From Desulfovibrionales bacterium (GTDB taxonomy: Bacteria; Desulfobacterota; Desulfovibrionia; Desulfovibrionales; Desulfonatronaceae), in the NCBI GenBank assembly GCA_007693505.1, contig REDL01000058.1, forward strand, positions 1-36,948: a stretch of 36,948 nucleotides of DNA. Direction: 5' to 3'. Below, in pieces: positions 31,629 to 36,948 of this stretch. The translations under genes and the position numbers were made by a program. The notes below the pieces were generated by a model. The model ran no database searches. It was not told the DNA's origin and saw only the letters and a list, made by a program, of their open reading frames with translations. Numbering within the stretch: position 1 is the first letter of the stretch; each line of letters starts with the position of its first letter.

Positions 31629-33338
31629 ATGCATGTTGTGATTATTGGCGGGGTGGCGTTGGGGCCCAAGGCGGCATGTCGCTTGAAACGGCTGATGCCG
31701 ACCGCCCGGGTGACCATCCTTGACCAGGGATCCCGGGTTTCCTACGGGGGGTGCGGTATTCCGTATTTTGTTTCCGGGGACGTCGCGGATGTCAAGGAGC
31801 TGCAAGCCACCAGCTTCCATATGCAGCGCGATCCGAAATTTTTTCGTGAGGCCAAGGGCGTGGATGTGTTGACCCGTAAGCGGGCCGAGCGCATTGATCG
31901 GGAGGCCAGGGTCGTTCATGCTCGGGACCTGGATTCCGGGGAGAGCATGGCACTGTCCTATGATAAACTGGTCCTGGCCACAGGCAGTCGTCCACGCAAG
32001 CCGGATTTTCCCGGTGTCAACCTGAAGGGGACTTTTGCCGTGTCCAACCTGGAGGAGGCCGAAGGCATCCGCTCCCTGATTGAGGCAGGCAAAGTGGGCA
32101 AGGCCGTGGTGGTCGGCGCCGGGTTCATCGGCCTGGAGATCGCCGAGGCGCTTGCGGACATGTGGGGCGTGGAGACGACGGTGGTGGAAATCGCTGATCA
32201 GATCCTGCCCGGCTTCGTCAGCCGGGAATTGGCCCAAATGGCCCAACACCACATGCAGGAAAAGGGGGTAACGTTCCGGCTGTCGGCCACGGTCAAGGGG
32301 TTTGCCGGAGACACTGGCGTGGAACGCGTGCTGCTGGACGGCGAGGAACTGGTCGCGGATCTGGTGATCCTCTCCGTGGGCGTGATTCCCAATTCCGAGC
32401 TGGCCCGGGACGCCGGGCTGGAGGTGTCGCCCCGGGGCGGCATCGTCGTGGATACGTACCTGCGGACCTCGGACCCGGACATTTACGCCGGCGGCAACTG
32501 TGTCCAGGTCACCAACCTGGTCACGGGCCAACCAGGGTATTACCCTTTGGGGTCATTGGCCAACCGTCAGGGCCGGGTGATCGGCACCAACCTTGCTGGC
32601 GGCGCGACCGAATTCCTCGGGGCAGTAGGTAGCTTTGCGGTCAAGCTATTCGAGATTTCCGTGGCCGGGGCAGGGTTGTGTCCGGAGGCGGCGCAGCAGG
32701 CCGGTCTGGATGCCGTCCATTCCCACGTGGTCCAGTCGGACCGGGCCCACTTTTTCCCGGAAAACGAATTGATGCACCTGGAAATGGTCGTGGAAAAGAG
32801 CGGCCCCCAAAAAGGCCGGGTTCTAGGCGTGCAGGGACTGTGCGCCAAGGGAGACGGTCTGGTGGGCCGGGTCGGGGCCGTGGCCGCTGTCCTGGGCAAC
32901 CACCCGCATGTCTCGGTAATCGGCAACCTGGAATATCCCTATTCGCCGCCTTTTTCCTCGGCCATGGACATCGTCAACACTGCTGCCAACGCCGCGGAGA
33001 ACATCCTGGAAGGCCGCTGCGCGGCCATGACCATCTCCGAATTTGAGCGACTTTGGAACGACCCAAGTCGCGATTTTCGGGTCCTGGACTGCCGCGGCAA
33101 CGCCAATGCCCAACCGTTCCTCGAAAAGCATCCCGAGGTCTGGATGAATATTCCCCAGGACGAGCTGGGGGCCAGGCTGGACGAAGTGCCCCGGGACAAG
33201 CCCCTGGTCCTGGTCTGCAACGCCGGGGGCCGCTCCTATGAATCTCAAATTACCCTCAAAGAAGCGGGCATCACGGACTCACTGAATCTGCAAGGAGGTG
33301 TGGCGGCGATTCGCAAGAGTGGTGTAGAGGAGGTGTAG
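31629..33338 (+). CDS. CoA-disulfide reductase / NAD(P)H-dependent polysulfide reductase fused to rhodanese
   Basis: A 569-residue flavoenzyme. The N-terminal FAD/NAD(P) oxidoreductase has GGVALGPKAACRLKR (FAD loop), active Cys42 in SYGGCGIPYFVSGDV (CoA-disulfide reductase type), NADH-binding VVVGAGFIGLEIAEAL near residue 160, and the DIYAGGNCVQV FAD box. A dimerisation domain follows, then a C-terminal rhodanese domain (about 470-569) with catalytic Cys530 in VCNAGGRS. Such fusions are NADH-dependent persulfide/polysulfide reductases (Npsr type) that shuttle sulfane sulfur as CoA persulfide. AGAGGA precedes the start. It is transcribed away from the Tim44-like gene. Confidence 0.93.
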   Translation: MHVVIIGGVALGPKAACRLKRLMPTARVTILDQGSRVSYGGCGIPYFVSGDVADVKELQATSFHMQRDPKFFREAKGVDVLTRKRAERIDREARVVHARDLDSGESMALSYDKLVLATGSRPRKPDFPGVNLKGTFAVSNLEEAEGIRSLIEAGKVGKAVVVGAGFIGLEIAEALADMWGVETTVVEIADQILPGFVSRELAQMAQHHMQEKGVTFRLSATVKGFAGDTGVERVLLDGEELVADLVILSVGVIPNSELARDAGLEVSPRGGIVVDTYLRTSDPDIYAGGNCVQVTNLVTGQPGYYPLGSLANRQGRVIGTNLAGGATEFLGAVGSFAVKLFEISVAGAGLCPEAAQQAGLDAVHSHVVQSDRAHFFPENELMHLEMVVEKSGPQKGRVLGVQGLCAKGDGLVGRVGAVAAVLGNHPHVSVIGNLEYPYSPPFSSAMDIVNTAANAAENILEGRCAAMTISEFERLWNDPSRDFRVLDCRGNANAQPFLEKHPEVWMNIPQDELGARLDEVPRDKPLVLVCNAGGRSYESQITLKEAGITDSLNLQGGVAAIRKSGVEEV

Positions 33339-33388
33339 AGAGACGGTGAAATGCCGTGCGGATATGACAACGGGTTAAGAATGAGCAA

Positions 33389-33661
33389 ATGGCCAACCTG
33401 CAGGTCAAAGGCATTGACGACAGACTTTATGACCAGTTGAAACGACAAGCTGCCCTGGAGAACAGGTCCGTGAGTCAGGAGGCCATTTTGATGATCAAAT
33501 ACCACCTTGGAACCCGCACTGCCCAGCGAACCGCGGCTTCACCCGCTGAAACGCTTCTTCAGCTTGCCGGCTCTTGGGAGGACGACCGTCCGGCGGAAGT
33601 CATCATAGATGAAATCAAGGCGTCTCGAAGCAACAGCCAACGCTTCCCTGACGGTTTCTGA
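33389..33661 (+). CDS. Ribbon-helix-helix antitoxin, FitA/VapB-type
   Basis: A 90-residue protein with an N-terminal ribbon-helix-helix motif (ANLQVKGIDDRLYDQLKRQAALENRSVSQEAILMIKYHL), as in FitA/VapB antitoxins that bind the operator of their own operon, then a short acidic tail (WEDDRPAEVIIDEIKASR) of the sort that blocks a PIN toxin. Its TGA overlaps the start of a truncated PIN reading frame. The promoter must lie in the 50 bp after the reductase gene or be shared with it. Confidence 0.82.
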   Translation: MANLQVKGIDDRLYDQLKRQAALENRSVSQEAILMIKYHLGTRTAQRTAASPAETLLQLAGSWEDDRPAEVIIDEIKASRSNSQRFPDGF

Positions 33662-34559: not shown

Positions 34560-34724
34560 TCAAAGCTCACCCGACGCGGGCCGTGTAGTGGCGTTACGCG
34601 GACGGGTGTTTTCCCAATAGGAGTGGTAGTAGATTCGCGTCGCTGGCTTGCCACCAATTTCTACGATCTCGACCCATTTGATGTTGGCGAGGCGTTTTTT
34701 AGGTAATTGGTCTTTCTGGGAGCA
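34560..34724 (-). other. Short unassigned open frame in accessory gap
   Basis: Between 34516 and 34767 the only thing that looks protein-like is this 54-codon minus-strand frame with no ATG, reading LPKKRLANIKWVEIVEIGG and then ATRIYYHSYW. It might be the end of a lost gene. Nothing identifies it. The sequence just after, on the minus strand (about 34592-34543), vaguely resembles an attC site (TAAC ... GTTGGAG), but the core boxes do not match well. Confidence 0.2.
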
Positions 34725-34767
34725 TTACGCGTTTATGACATAATTCTGCGTTTGCTGATGTAGGTCG

Positions 34768-34945
34768 CCCTTACAGGGCTCTTCCTGCTTTCCCATCGTT
34801 GTCCCAGGGCCGTTGCCCTGGGCTGTGCTTGTTTCGCCCCTTCAGGGCTTGATTTCAGCCCCAAAGGGGCGACATGTTATATCCCAGGGCAACGCCCTGG
34901 GATATCAATGAGATATTTTATCCAGCCCTGAAGGGGCGGCCTAAA
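34768..34945. repeat. Cluster of palindromic GGGGC/CCAGGGC repeats
   Basis: Contains CCCAGGGC-CGTT-GCCCTGGG (34803-34822); exact 14-base inverted copies GCCCCTTCAGGGCT (34836-34849) and AGCCCTGAAGGGGC (34924-34937); GCCCCAAAGGGGC near 34858-34870; and a perfect 12-bp hairpin, ATATCCCAGGGC-AAC-GCCCTGGGATAT (34879-34905). Such arrays are found in many unrelated genomes. They encode nothing here and seem to interrupt the small gene on their right. Confidence 0.8.
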
Positions 34946-35050
34946 AGGGTGAGGCTCATCAAAAAATACGTAATGCTCCCGGTCTTTCTTGTTATCAGCC
35001 TTCTGTATCTCATCGAAAGCCTTTACAACTTCCCCTCTCATGTCGGTCAT

Positions 35051-35185: not shown

Positions 35186-35194
35186 TTCTTTTCA

Positions 35195-35266
35195 GCCCAA
35201 TGACTAAGTTCATTGGCGGCAATGGAGCTGTAGCGGAATTGTCGTCTTGCGGATTCTTAGTTAGAC
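35195..35266 (-). other. Possible degenerate attC site of second cassette
   Basis: On the minus strand GTCTAAC (35266-35260) matches the attC core RYYYAAC exactly and contains the stop codon of the DUF2442 gene, a frequent feature of cassettes. ATTGGGC (35201-35195) matches GTTRRRY at six of seven. The bases between can pair only in part (ACTAAG with CTTAGT, GCAA with TTGC). Weak alone; supported by position. Confidence 0.35.
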
Positions 35267-35500
35267 ATTTTTAACTGAATCCAGATACAGCGTGTCAGGG
35301 CAGATATCTTGATTGTGGGGCCATACTACTGTCCCATCCCACGCCTTGGCCTGCTTGAAATAAACAGTATCGTTCAATTCCTTAAAGACACCGAAATGGA
35401 GCAGGTGGGAACAATCGTATATTCCTTCCTCGTCATTATTAAATTGAATTTTCAATTTGTAGTCATCAATCGCAGAAACGCTTTTAACTCTTGGATTCAT
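35261..35500 (-). CDS. DUF2442 protein
   Basis: A 79-residue DUF2442 protein (MNPRVKSVSAIDDYKLKIQFNNDEEGIYDC..., ending DTLYLDS). Members often sit beside DUF4160 genes and have been considered components of toxin-antitoxin-like pairs; function is unproven. It starts four bases after the end of the (broken) DUF4160 gene. AT-richer composition than the core genes suggests recent arrival. Its TAA stop lies inside an attC-like box. Confidence 0.85.
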   Translation of the reverse strand: MNPRVKSVSAIDDYKLKIQFNNDEEGIYDCSHLLHFGVFKELNDTVYFKQAKAWDGTVVWPHNQDICPDTLYLDSVKNV

Positions 35501-35505
35501 TGTTG

Positions 35506-35773
35506 CTACCTCAAAGGATCAATTTTGTATGGTTGCTCACCAGATACTGCAATATTCCAGTTGGCAACAAGTTCTTCTTTATGCAGTTCGATCCAGGCTT
35601 GGAGCAATTTCATTTTTGAGTTTGGTATACTAATCAAGTACGGTGCCATCATGGATTTGCACGATTACTTCATTATCCTGGTGTTTTACATGAATATGAG
35701 GCAACTTGTGTTGTTTGTTGTCCATGAAATACATGTAGACGATCAATCCGTAAAACATTGAAATTGATGGCAT
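35506..35773 (-). pseudogene. DUF4160 gene broken by a frameshift
   Basis: From ATG 35773 (GAGGTAAAG upstream) the frame reads MPSISMFYGLIVYMYFMDN, then KQHKLPHIHVKHQDNEVIV, the DUF4160 start, and stops at TAG 35632-35630 after DGTVLD. The remainder of the domain is intact in another frame from about 35629: SIPNSKMKLLQAWIELHKEE, then LVANWNIAVSGEQPYKIDPLR, ending TAG 35508-35506. A net +1 or -2 change near 35630-35636 explains it. The shifted half has no start codon of its own, so the toxin-like partner of DUF2442 is probably dead. Confidence 0.85.
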
Positions 35774-35798
35774 ATCTTTACCTCGTTTTTTGCTTTAT

Positions 35799-35855
35799 CC
35801 TTAACGCCCAAATCAGCCGCGCGCTTTTTGCGTCGGCTGCATTTGCTTGTTAGCT
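35799..35855 (-). other. Integron attC site of BrnT/BrnA cassette
   Basis: A 57-bp minus-strand site in the order R'-L'-loop-L''-R'': AGCTAAC, AAGC, AAATGCAGCCG, a 14-base tip with its own CGC/GCG stem, CGGCTGATTT, GGGC, GTTAAGG. L' and L'' pair fully except for one unpaired G, the extrahelical base typical of attC. The core boxes each differ from RYYYAAC and GTTRRRY at one base. The cassette left end (GTTAGCT, 36451-36445) is the exact complement of this R' box, as expected if the cassette was cut at its own attC. Confidence 0.8.
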
Positions 35856-36127
35856 GTGAGATCTTGCAAAGAACCCGAAATGTATTTGTGAATGATGCTC
35901 GATACAAAGGTCTGGTAAGGAATACCCTCCTCTGTGGCTCTAGACTGAATAGCCGTTAAATCTCTGTTGGAGATTCGAATATTTATTCTTTTATCTTTCT
36001 TAAATGTATTACTAGCAATTGCAACTAGCTCTTCTCTGCGAGATTCAGTTAATACTGACTCAAATTGCCCAGCCTCGACAGCATCAAGGAGATCCTTCTC
36101 TTCTTCGGATAACTTAGACTTGCTCAT
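35813..36127 (-). CDS. BrnA/CopG-like antitoxin with C-terminus encoded in attC
   Basis: A 104-residue antitoxin of the CopG/BrnA type. An N-terminal acidic-basic helix (SKSKLSEEEKDLLDAVEAGQF) is followed by a ribbon-helix-helix (KRINIRISNRDLTAIQSRATEEGIPYQTFVSSIIHKYISG). It binds and blocks the upstream toxin and represses the operon. Its ATG overlaps the toxin stop (ATGA). The last ~14 residues (TANKQMQPTQKARG) are encoded by the attC site, so the tail is a by-product of cassette structure. The codon use and AT content differ from the core genome. Confidence 0.82.
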   Translation of the reverse strand: MSKSKLSEEEKDLLDAVEAGQFESVLTESRREELVAIASNTFKKDKRINIRISNRDLTAIQSRATEEGIPYQTFVSSIIHKYISGSLQDLTANKQMQPTQKARG

Positions 36128-36402
36128 GATCTACCTCCAAGGTACAGCTTAGTAAATTTTCTACTCGGAATGATAGTTTTCAAAAATATCTCATCATCCC
36201 TTTCTACATAAGGGACAAGATAAACGTACTCCCTGATACAAATGACGAAAATCCGCTGATTGGGATAATTTGAAGCATTGGGGTGGGCGATATCATCTAA
36301 TAAACCACCATGTTCAATGTGAAAGATCGCCTCCTCAAAGGATACGCTCCTATCGACTATGAGTGCCTGATTTTTATCAGGGTTCCAATTGTAGATTTTC
36401 AT
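36124..36402 (-). CDS. BrnT-family (RelE-like) toxin
   Basis: A 92-residue toxin of the BrnT/RelE fold, probably a translation-blocking ribonuclease. The start YNWNPDKNQALIVDRSVSFEEAI is the typical BrnT W.P.K......V.FEEA pattern; RIFVICIREYVYLVPYVERDDE and IIPSRKFTKLYL cover the later strands and basic C-terminus. Toxin-before-antitoxin order is normal for brnTA. The 5' end of the cassette is 48 bases before the start. Such TA pairs are frequent cargo of chromosomal integrons, where they stabilise the array. Confidence 0.8.
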   Translation of the reverse strand: MKIYNWNPDKNQALIVDRSVSFEEAIFHIEHGGLLDDIAHPNASNYPNQRIFVICIREYVYLVPYVERDDEIFLKTIIPSRKFTKLYLGGRS

Positions 36403-36444
36403 AGATAGAAGCCTAGCACAAATGTGTGCACTTTGTCATCAAGC

Positions 36445-36451
36445 AGCTAAC
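36445..36451 (-). other. Cassette/attI recombination junction
   Basis: On the minus strand GTTAGCT (36451-36445); integron recombination would cut after the G. TTAGCT is exactly what this cassette should carry if it was excised at its own attC (R' box AGCTAAC at 35855). The bases before the G then belong to attI, whose extent cannot be set from this window. Confidence 0.6.
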
Positions 36452-36513
36452 AGTGTTATTATGCGGAACTCACAAAAATCCGCCCCCCAAAATTCCCGGC
36501 CTTAACACCTGCT

Positions 36514-36591
36514 GATTTGGCAAGCACTTTTTGAAAAAATGGTCAGTATTTGCCATTTTATTTCAATGTATTAAAAAATGCTTGTCAAATC
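36514..36591. repeat. 78-bp imperfect palindrome in attI region
   Basis: GATTTGGCAAGCACTTTTT (36514-36532) and AAAAAATGCTTGTCAAATC (36573-36591) are inverted copies with 17 of 19 positions matching. Inside, GAAAAAATGG (36533-36542) faces CCATTTTATTTC (36553-36564) around a small loop. It lies between the first cassette and the integrase. It may be structural, a transposon remnant, or part of cassette promoter control. Confidence 0.7.
36560..36588 (-). promoter_or_regulatory. Candidate cassette promoter (Pc)
   Basis: On the minus strand a perfect TTGACA (36588-36583) is followed after 17 bases by TGAAAT (36565-36560; four of six to consensus). It points into the cassette genes, about 110 bp from the recombination junction, as Pc does in integrons. 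The -35 box lies in one arm of the 78-bp palindrome. Confidence 0.5.
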
Positions 36592-36601
36592 CTTCTTGAC
36601 T

Positions 36602-36690
36602 CCGAGGTCAGCTTTATGCTTTGTGCTGAACTTAGCTTTATGCGGCAGCAATATAATCACCACAAGGACGGGGCATAAAGCCAACCTCGG
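36602..36690. promoter_or_regulatory. Inverted repeat around integrase leader
   Basis: CCGAGGTCAGCTTTATGC (36602-36619) and GCATAAAGCCAACCTCGG (36673-36690) are inverted copies, 16 of 18 matching. A further AGCTTTATGC copy lies at 36634-36643, and TATAAT at 36652-36657. The right arm runs into the integrase RBS (GGAGG 36689-36693), so a folded leader could hide it. No clear LexA box was found. Confidence 0.6.
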
Positions 36691-36698
36691 AGGAAATG

Positions 36699-36948
36699 AT
36701 GGATCAAACCGTGATCACTTTTGACGACTGGGAGAAGGTCTTGAAGGCCAGTGTCCCACCGGAACGATATCACGCATACCGGGAAGCCATCGTCAAATTC
36801 CGGTACTGGTTTAGCAGTCCGTTGAAAAACTCCCAATTGCTGCGTCGCCACAAAAAGTTCAAACTCTCACGTATGAATAAATACGCTTCGACATTGATTC
36901 GATTGCCAGGACGGCAAATCGAAAATGTGGCGAAGCCACAGCCCGCAG
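36699..36948 (+). CDS. intI: Tyrosine recombinase start, probable integron integrase (5' part, interrupted)
   Basis: From ATG 36699 (GGAGG five bases upstream) the frame reads MDQTVITFDDWEKVLKASV, then PPERYHAYREAIVKFRYWF. This N-terminal helical stretch resembles the long integron integrases I know from Planctomycetes and Verrucomicrobia. The catalytic domain lies outside the window. From about 36813 the frame stays open but the DNA is a dispersed repeat, so the gene is probably truncated or interrupted. The call rests on the N-terminal likeness and above all on context: an attC-bearing cassette array pointing away, a Pc-like promoter, and large leader repeats. A different phage-type tyrosine recombinase is the alternative. 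Confidence 0.55.
   Translation, partial: MDQTVITFDDWEKVLKASVPPERYHAYREAIVKFRYWFSSPLKNSQLLRRHKKFKLSRMNKYASTLIRLPGRQIENVAKPQPA
36815..36948. repeat. Dispersed repeat entering the integrase gene
   Basis: GAAAAACTCCCAATTGCTG (36824-36842) matches 14352-14370 at 18 of 19 bases, and CAATTGCTGCGTCGC (36834-36848) matches 14502-14516 exactly. A CGTATGAATAAATACG palindrome lies at 36870-36885. The element continues past the window. Confidence 0.65.

Follow-up and report, generated by a model that had tools for sequence, protein, structure and literature searches.

The window, as we call the whole stretch of 36,948 nucleotides analysed (contig C1 of a draft genome, G000, of 3.94 Mb in 136 contigs), ends in an integron, and the locus is very probably one of a family of paralogous chromosomal integrons of Desulfonatronum with an extended attI and an integrase gene split by a MITE-like repeat. 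Membership of this platform in the integrons is firm. The chromosomal integron platform originally predicted at the contig end was borne out by the attC, attI, cassettes and 5' end of intI located within 35799-36811. The attribution to a probable sulfate reducer, here of Desulfonatronum type, has good support: among named records, the nearest one with this IntI is Desulfonatronum sp. SpSt-1171. Cassettes would enter at attI (36450/36451) by integrase-mediated attI x attC recombination and would presumably be transcribed from a promoter in the interval between attI and intI.

The attI site in related genomes

The attI core lies on the minus strand at 36451-36474 and was delimited by the homology break against a congener (G004) and by a 21-bp core pattern. 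The window and G004 are 95.8% identical from 36449 to 36948, and the match ends exactly at the crossover, G^TT, between 36451 and 36450, beside intI. The other copies of the platform share this edge. Beyond it, G004 holds its own array of about five cassettes, different from those of the window. The same flanking gene (31629-33351) borders the two arrays, indicating that the locus is orthologous. It is also present in another relative, G006, and a further one, G003, has the empty site, in which about 150 bp at most separate the flank gene from the gene downstream of the integron. Between G000 and G004 the platform is 96-97% identical, compared with 86% for the flank gene and 77-82% for nadE, so that the platform may have been exchanged between species.

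In the G004 array, the product of one cassette (L112 2742-4334) is a defence reverse transcriptase of DRT4 type (PADLOC Drt4, E 2e-157); next to it lie DUF4145, a HI1419/HI1420-type toxin-antitoxin pair, NYN-LOTUS and an FMN reductase. In addition, a unit of about 185 bp without ORFs (GTTCCCGCGACGC...CCCGGCCCGTTA) was found at L112 825-1010 and 1692-1880 and also in L195, L186 and L199. In several platforms its position is precisely where attI or an attC would otherwise meet the following cassette. It resembles a non-coding mini-cassette that has been amplified and that brings an attC-like hairpin of its own.

Gene cassettes and candidate promoter

Leaving attI on the minus strand, the gene order is a BrnT-like/CopG pair (36402-35813), an attC (35855-35799), DUF4160 and DUF2442. 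Cassette 1 (35805-36450) codes for a BrnT-like toxin of 92 aa (36124-36402; PF04365, E 2e-6, 28.4 bits, below the Pfam cut-off of 34.5) and a CopG/BrnA-type antitoxin of 104 aa (35813-36127; PF12441, E 1.6e-6, above the cut-off) whose reading frame terminates within the attC of the cassette. Its own R' (36451-36444) matches its own R'': as had been claimed, the junction GTTAGCTG on the minus strand exactly complements the CAGCTAAC of the cassette itself. The cargo is AT-rich, also as anticipated, with a GC content of 0.395 and 0.408 against 0.573 in the window.

The attC proposed after the first cassette (35799-35855, minus strand, AGCTAACAAGCAAATGCAGCCGACGCAAAAAGCGCGCGGCTGATTTGGGCGTTAAGG) shows R and L stems on folding, with an extrahelical G. 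It was found with a score of 32.8 by a profile trained only on 18 attC sites from the arrays of relatives, none of them from the window. The maxima of 200 shuffled windows had a median of 21.3 and reached 29.0 at most, and when the 3-kb cassette region was shuffled 300 times the observed score was never attained. This profile was used instead of a first hand-made score that had been unselective (19.0 observed against a null median of 19.05); a covariance model for attC was abandoned because the MAFFT alignments of the attC arms were too poor. Furthermore, the complete cassette 1 recurs with 81% identity in an array of a third species (G002, C1:435 kb), second or later in the array, behind another attC-like junction and with limits exactly at the recombination sites. 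Found in different platforms, it behaves as a mobile unit would.

Cassette 2 (35190-35804, minus strand) was delineated by PF10387 and its reading frames and contains DUF4160 (about 35510-35775) and DUF2442 (35261-35500), the stop codon of the latter lying inside an R''-like GTCTAAC. DUF4160 is frameshifted and the pair is therefore probably non-functional. The attC end of this cassette (about 35190-35267) is degenerate, and the trained profile made no attC call there. Just past the array, 17-bp inverted repeats (GGGAGCATTACGCGTTT / AAATACGTAATGCTCCC) surround nested palindromes (CGCCCCTTCAGGGCTTGAT...) at 34718-34980, an element that appears MITE-like. A FitA-like antitoxin gene (MANLQVKGIDD...) adjoins the array (33389-33661) and also a platform copy in G003 (L173 1989-2279).

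The sequence TTGACA-17-TGAAAT (36560-36588, minus strand) is present and aimed at the cassettes, as the original prediction had it for a promoter. A stricter scan omits it, promoter-like sites are about as many as expected by chance, and over 17 platform copies the -10 hexamer is conserved (0.89) and the -35 is not (0.68). As a consensus match it makes a weak case for a candidate Pc. Of the full intI-attI-Pc-cassette layout once proposed, the integron stands; a complete working layout does not, since intI is interrupted. Pc is a consensus match.

An integrase gene split by a dispersed repeat

The intI reading frame starts on the plus strand with an ATG at 36696/36699, facing away from the minus-strand genes as predicted, and is open up to the contig end. 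Its beginning aligns with that of the intact 493-aa IntI of Desulfonatronum sp. SpSt-1171 (L056 368-1846); this 5' end (36696-36814), belonging to an extra N-terminal domain, is interrupted after about 38 codons. The stretch from 36815 to 36948 at the contig end, missed at first, is not integrase and represents the left part, on the plus strand, of a MITE-like dispersed repeat of ~238 bp (CAGTCCGTTGAAAAA...TTTTTCAACACTCAG), inside which the contig ends. The repeat has 45 matches in its own genome and occurs as copies and as internally deleted variants, and TTAG at 36811-36814 is the target-site duplication. G004 contains the whole insert, about 238 bp, TTAG-flanked and out of frame, plus an additional TAG, and G006 is without it at the corresponding position of intI. 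Reading the sequence, excision of the insert together with one TTAG would restore the frame in register with L056.

The rest of intI begins contig C116, about 124 bp past the last base of the window in G004 coordinates. The link between C1 and C116 is given by synteny with this congener, the right half of the insert and the 124 bp being unassembled in G000, and by synteny the interruption in the window species is firm. The gene past 36948 proved to be an integron integrase with a complete catalytic part (TIGR02249, 352.6 bits against a cut-off of 265), and the alignment contains both the IntI-specific region, looked for as a check on the prediction, and the catalytic R..K..HxxR..Y. It is the only IntI over the cut-off in G000. 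Among solved structures its nearest relative is 2a3v, an integron integrase (E 6e-59; Z 23.1), and no close IntI relative appeared in the viral contigs searched. A phage or transposon integrase accompanied by chance hairpins resembling attC is extremely improbable: nothing speaks for it beyond the shared tyrosine-recombinase domains, and it is contradicted by the TIGR02249 score, the attC arrays in close relatives and the exact attI break.

The insert lies in the N-terminal domain and the catalytic core is intact. An intact intI is not required for the integron class and many known chromosomal integrons carry intI pseudogenes, so that the interruption lowers the case for a complete, working integron and not that for an integron. 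The repeat has cut the extra domain in the window species, leaving downstream an integrase core of canonical length. If expressed, this core would be the sole integrase of the genome that could serve all of its platform copies.

The locus could also be a fossil, with intI as a dead pseudogene, its core untranslated and the arrays frozen leftovers, and we give this a serious though somewhat less than even chance. The N-terminal frame is broken in both G000 and G004 (in the latter with the extra TAG), the catalytic domain is deleted in G006, G002 has only scraps of intI, and intI decay is common, affecting about a third in one survey (PMC2426708) and 43-46% in another (PMC3108266). Against it, the cassettes at attI differ between G000 and G004 and the catalytic part has evolved under constraint since the ancestor of these two loci. 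Between them, 20 codons of the catalytic part show synonymous and 10 non-synonymous differences (P 1.8e-6 against neutrality), compared with 3 and 9 in the broken extension (Fisher P 0.02), strong indication at the sequence level of purifying selection on the core. Both loci carry the insert, and constraint on the core therefore outlasted the break, which suggests that the truncated core is still made. That the core on C116 is active seems to us about an even bet.

Several platforms per genome

A covariance model of the hairpin element preceding intI (boxes A and C, see below) matches the intI leaders plus several further loci per genome. The attI edge from which these extra loci start is the same, and what is left of intI in them varies in length, ending anywhere between about residues 60 and 283. 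An independent attI pattern of 21 bp, with zero control hits, was found in 9 genomes. The complete 3.76-Mb chromosome of G006 has six perfect attI cores, the same six loci matched by the leader model, and no IntI over the cut-off. There were nine matches in G004 and three in G000, namely the window and degenerate copies on C111 and C130. Leaving aside that of the window, 11 of 13 platform copies have an attC-like site behind them on the cassette strand, as does each of the six in G006; ten of these sites beat all 100 shuffles and the one at the G006 main locus is marginal (1/100 shuffles reaches it). An attC call was absent at two copies (G003_C6 and G004_C23), and the opposite strand of the 13 had no attC-like site of comparable score. 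From these comparisons the multi-copy nature of attI and its 245-bp flank in the genus can be considered firm. The tree of the platforms was poorly resolved, with 15 of its 27 inner branches open.

The many copies per genome, and the abundance of dispersed repeats in these genomes, might suggest that a transposable element carrying attI spread the platforms, rather than duplication of whole integrons. We find this improbable: the copies have exactly the same attI edge but vary in their intI-side ends, attC-bearing cassettes come after most of them, and those that were read showed no common right boundary marked by terminal repeats. Several copies of the box element were also observed in each of the Verrucomicrobiota-type genomes G594, G499, G043, G803 and G576, so that multi-platform integrons may not be limited to Desulfonatronum.

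Conserved boxes between attI and intI

The platform would be an extended site, made of the attI core and of one box that occurs three times within the 245 bp ahead of intI. Box A (36602-36619, plus strand) and its direct copy, box B (36626-36648, plus strand), were recognized by comparison across relatives and platform copies, and in most relatives a TTGAC-like hexamer (36596-36601) stands just before box A. Box C (36673-36692, minus strand), supported by folding, by covariation and by conservation in 17 platform copies, is an inverted copy of box A and abuts the ribosome-binding site of intI. This architecture before intI is common to relatives from Desulfonatronum to records of Kiritimatiellae and Lentisphaerae. 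In arms A and C 89% of the cells are paired, a percentage somewhat favoured by the box ends having been picked by eye before the covariation test, and 7 pairs changed on both sides. The A-C covariation score was reached by 0 of 500 shuffles and is lost on a one-column slide. An Rfam search gave no match.

The inverted boxes could form a hairpin in the RNA, masking the ribosome-binding site and regulating the translation of intI. The stable fold of the A/C region (z -5.7), the compensatory changes across phyla and the position of the 3' arm against the Shine-Dalgarno sequence would fit, and we still rate it as rather unlikely. In the 15 copies without an intact catalytic core the mean pairwise identity is 0.90 in the boxes, near the 0.93 of the attI core, and 0.69 in the remaining bases, and in the 17-copy set, out of 231 circular shifts, none ranked above the actual placement of the boxes. 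Conservation where intI is gone has no easy explanation in selection on intI translation and makes an extended attI likelier. Furthermore, the third, direct copy (box B) is conserved too, and an attI-proximal box shares GCC-N-ACTTC in several relatives, as judged by eye. A hairpin serving as intI leader only is also weakened by the matches of the model at many loci without intact intI. Judged by sequence conservation, the boxes are most likely components of an extended attI and not only of the leader of intI.

Box B may resemble the direct repeats of attI1. The integrase has accessory sites in attI1 (PMC3053210), and by analogy the likeliest binder of the boxes would be the integrase, perhaps via its extra domain.

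The extra domain of the integrase

Ahead of the usual IntI, most of the Desulfobacterota and PVC integrases examined have about 90 additional residues, an extension that would give this type of integrase an additional SAM-like core-binding domain at the N terminus. It aligns with the enzyme's own core-binding domain (hhalign 96.6%), and the fold predicted for it (pLDDT 88) has its counterparts in XerD (Z 8.0), 2a3v (Z 7.8) and an archaeal Xer recombinase (Z 7.8). These matches rank above unrelated chains, with Z values that are only moderate for a small helical domain, and the seven best were all N-terminal (core-binding) regions of tyrosine recombinases or integrases. Taken together, profile alignment and fold matches indicate that the extra domain is probably a duplicated SAM-like DNA-binding domain. 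That it reads the extended attI is plausible by analogy. A wider proposal, possible although we hold it a little more doubtful than its opposite, is that the attI of this clade is large and composite, consisting of a core and three accessory boxes read by the extra SAM-like domain like the arm-type sites of phage integrases, and that many attI platforms share one integrase in trans or outlive its loss as a distributed multi-site integron.

Comparison with known integrons

Like the sedentary chromosomal integrons of Vibrio cholerae or Xanthomonas, these have an intI facing away from attI, attC cassettes and frequent intI decay. They differ in the several paralogous platforms per chromosome with one attI type and few cassettes each, in the extra N-terminal domain of IntI and in the three boxes flanking attI. 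The IntI of deltaproteobacterial 'clade 15' was described in 2008 by Nemergut et al. as about 120 aa longer than others, and a gene fusion was proposed (PMC2426708). The integrases studied here are similarly longer; the extension appears to be a second SAM-like core-binding domain and is cut off in the window species. In attI1 of class 1 integrons there are also additional direct repeats, bound by the integrase (PMC3053210), whereas the putative sites described here are 150-245 bp from the crossover, beside intI, and include an inverted pair. CALIN are likewise dispersed attC cassettes without intI, but the clusters found here keep attI and the flanking boxes.

The classical integron part of the locus is ordinary. 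The multiplicity of platforms and the box array are undescribed within the literature we could reach; neither a paper on integrons of Desulfonatronum nor an account of an intI leader of the A/C type turned up in the open-licence literature. Outside class 1, attI sites are poorly described, IntegronFinder seeks attI only for that class (PMC9024848), and how integrases are controlled beyond beta/gamma-Proteobacteria was not settled in earlier work (PMC3108266). With the extra domain naturally truncated and selection still acting on the core, the role of this domain becomes accessible to testing. Integrase-less platforms with captured genes would not be reported as integrons by current finders. 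A recognisable attI with conserved boxes allows direct searches for attI, which reveal multiple platforms per chromosome that integrase-based searches miss.
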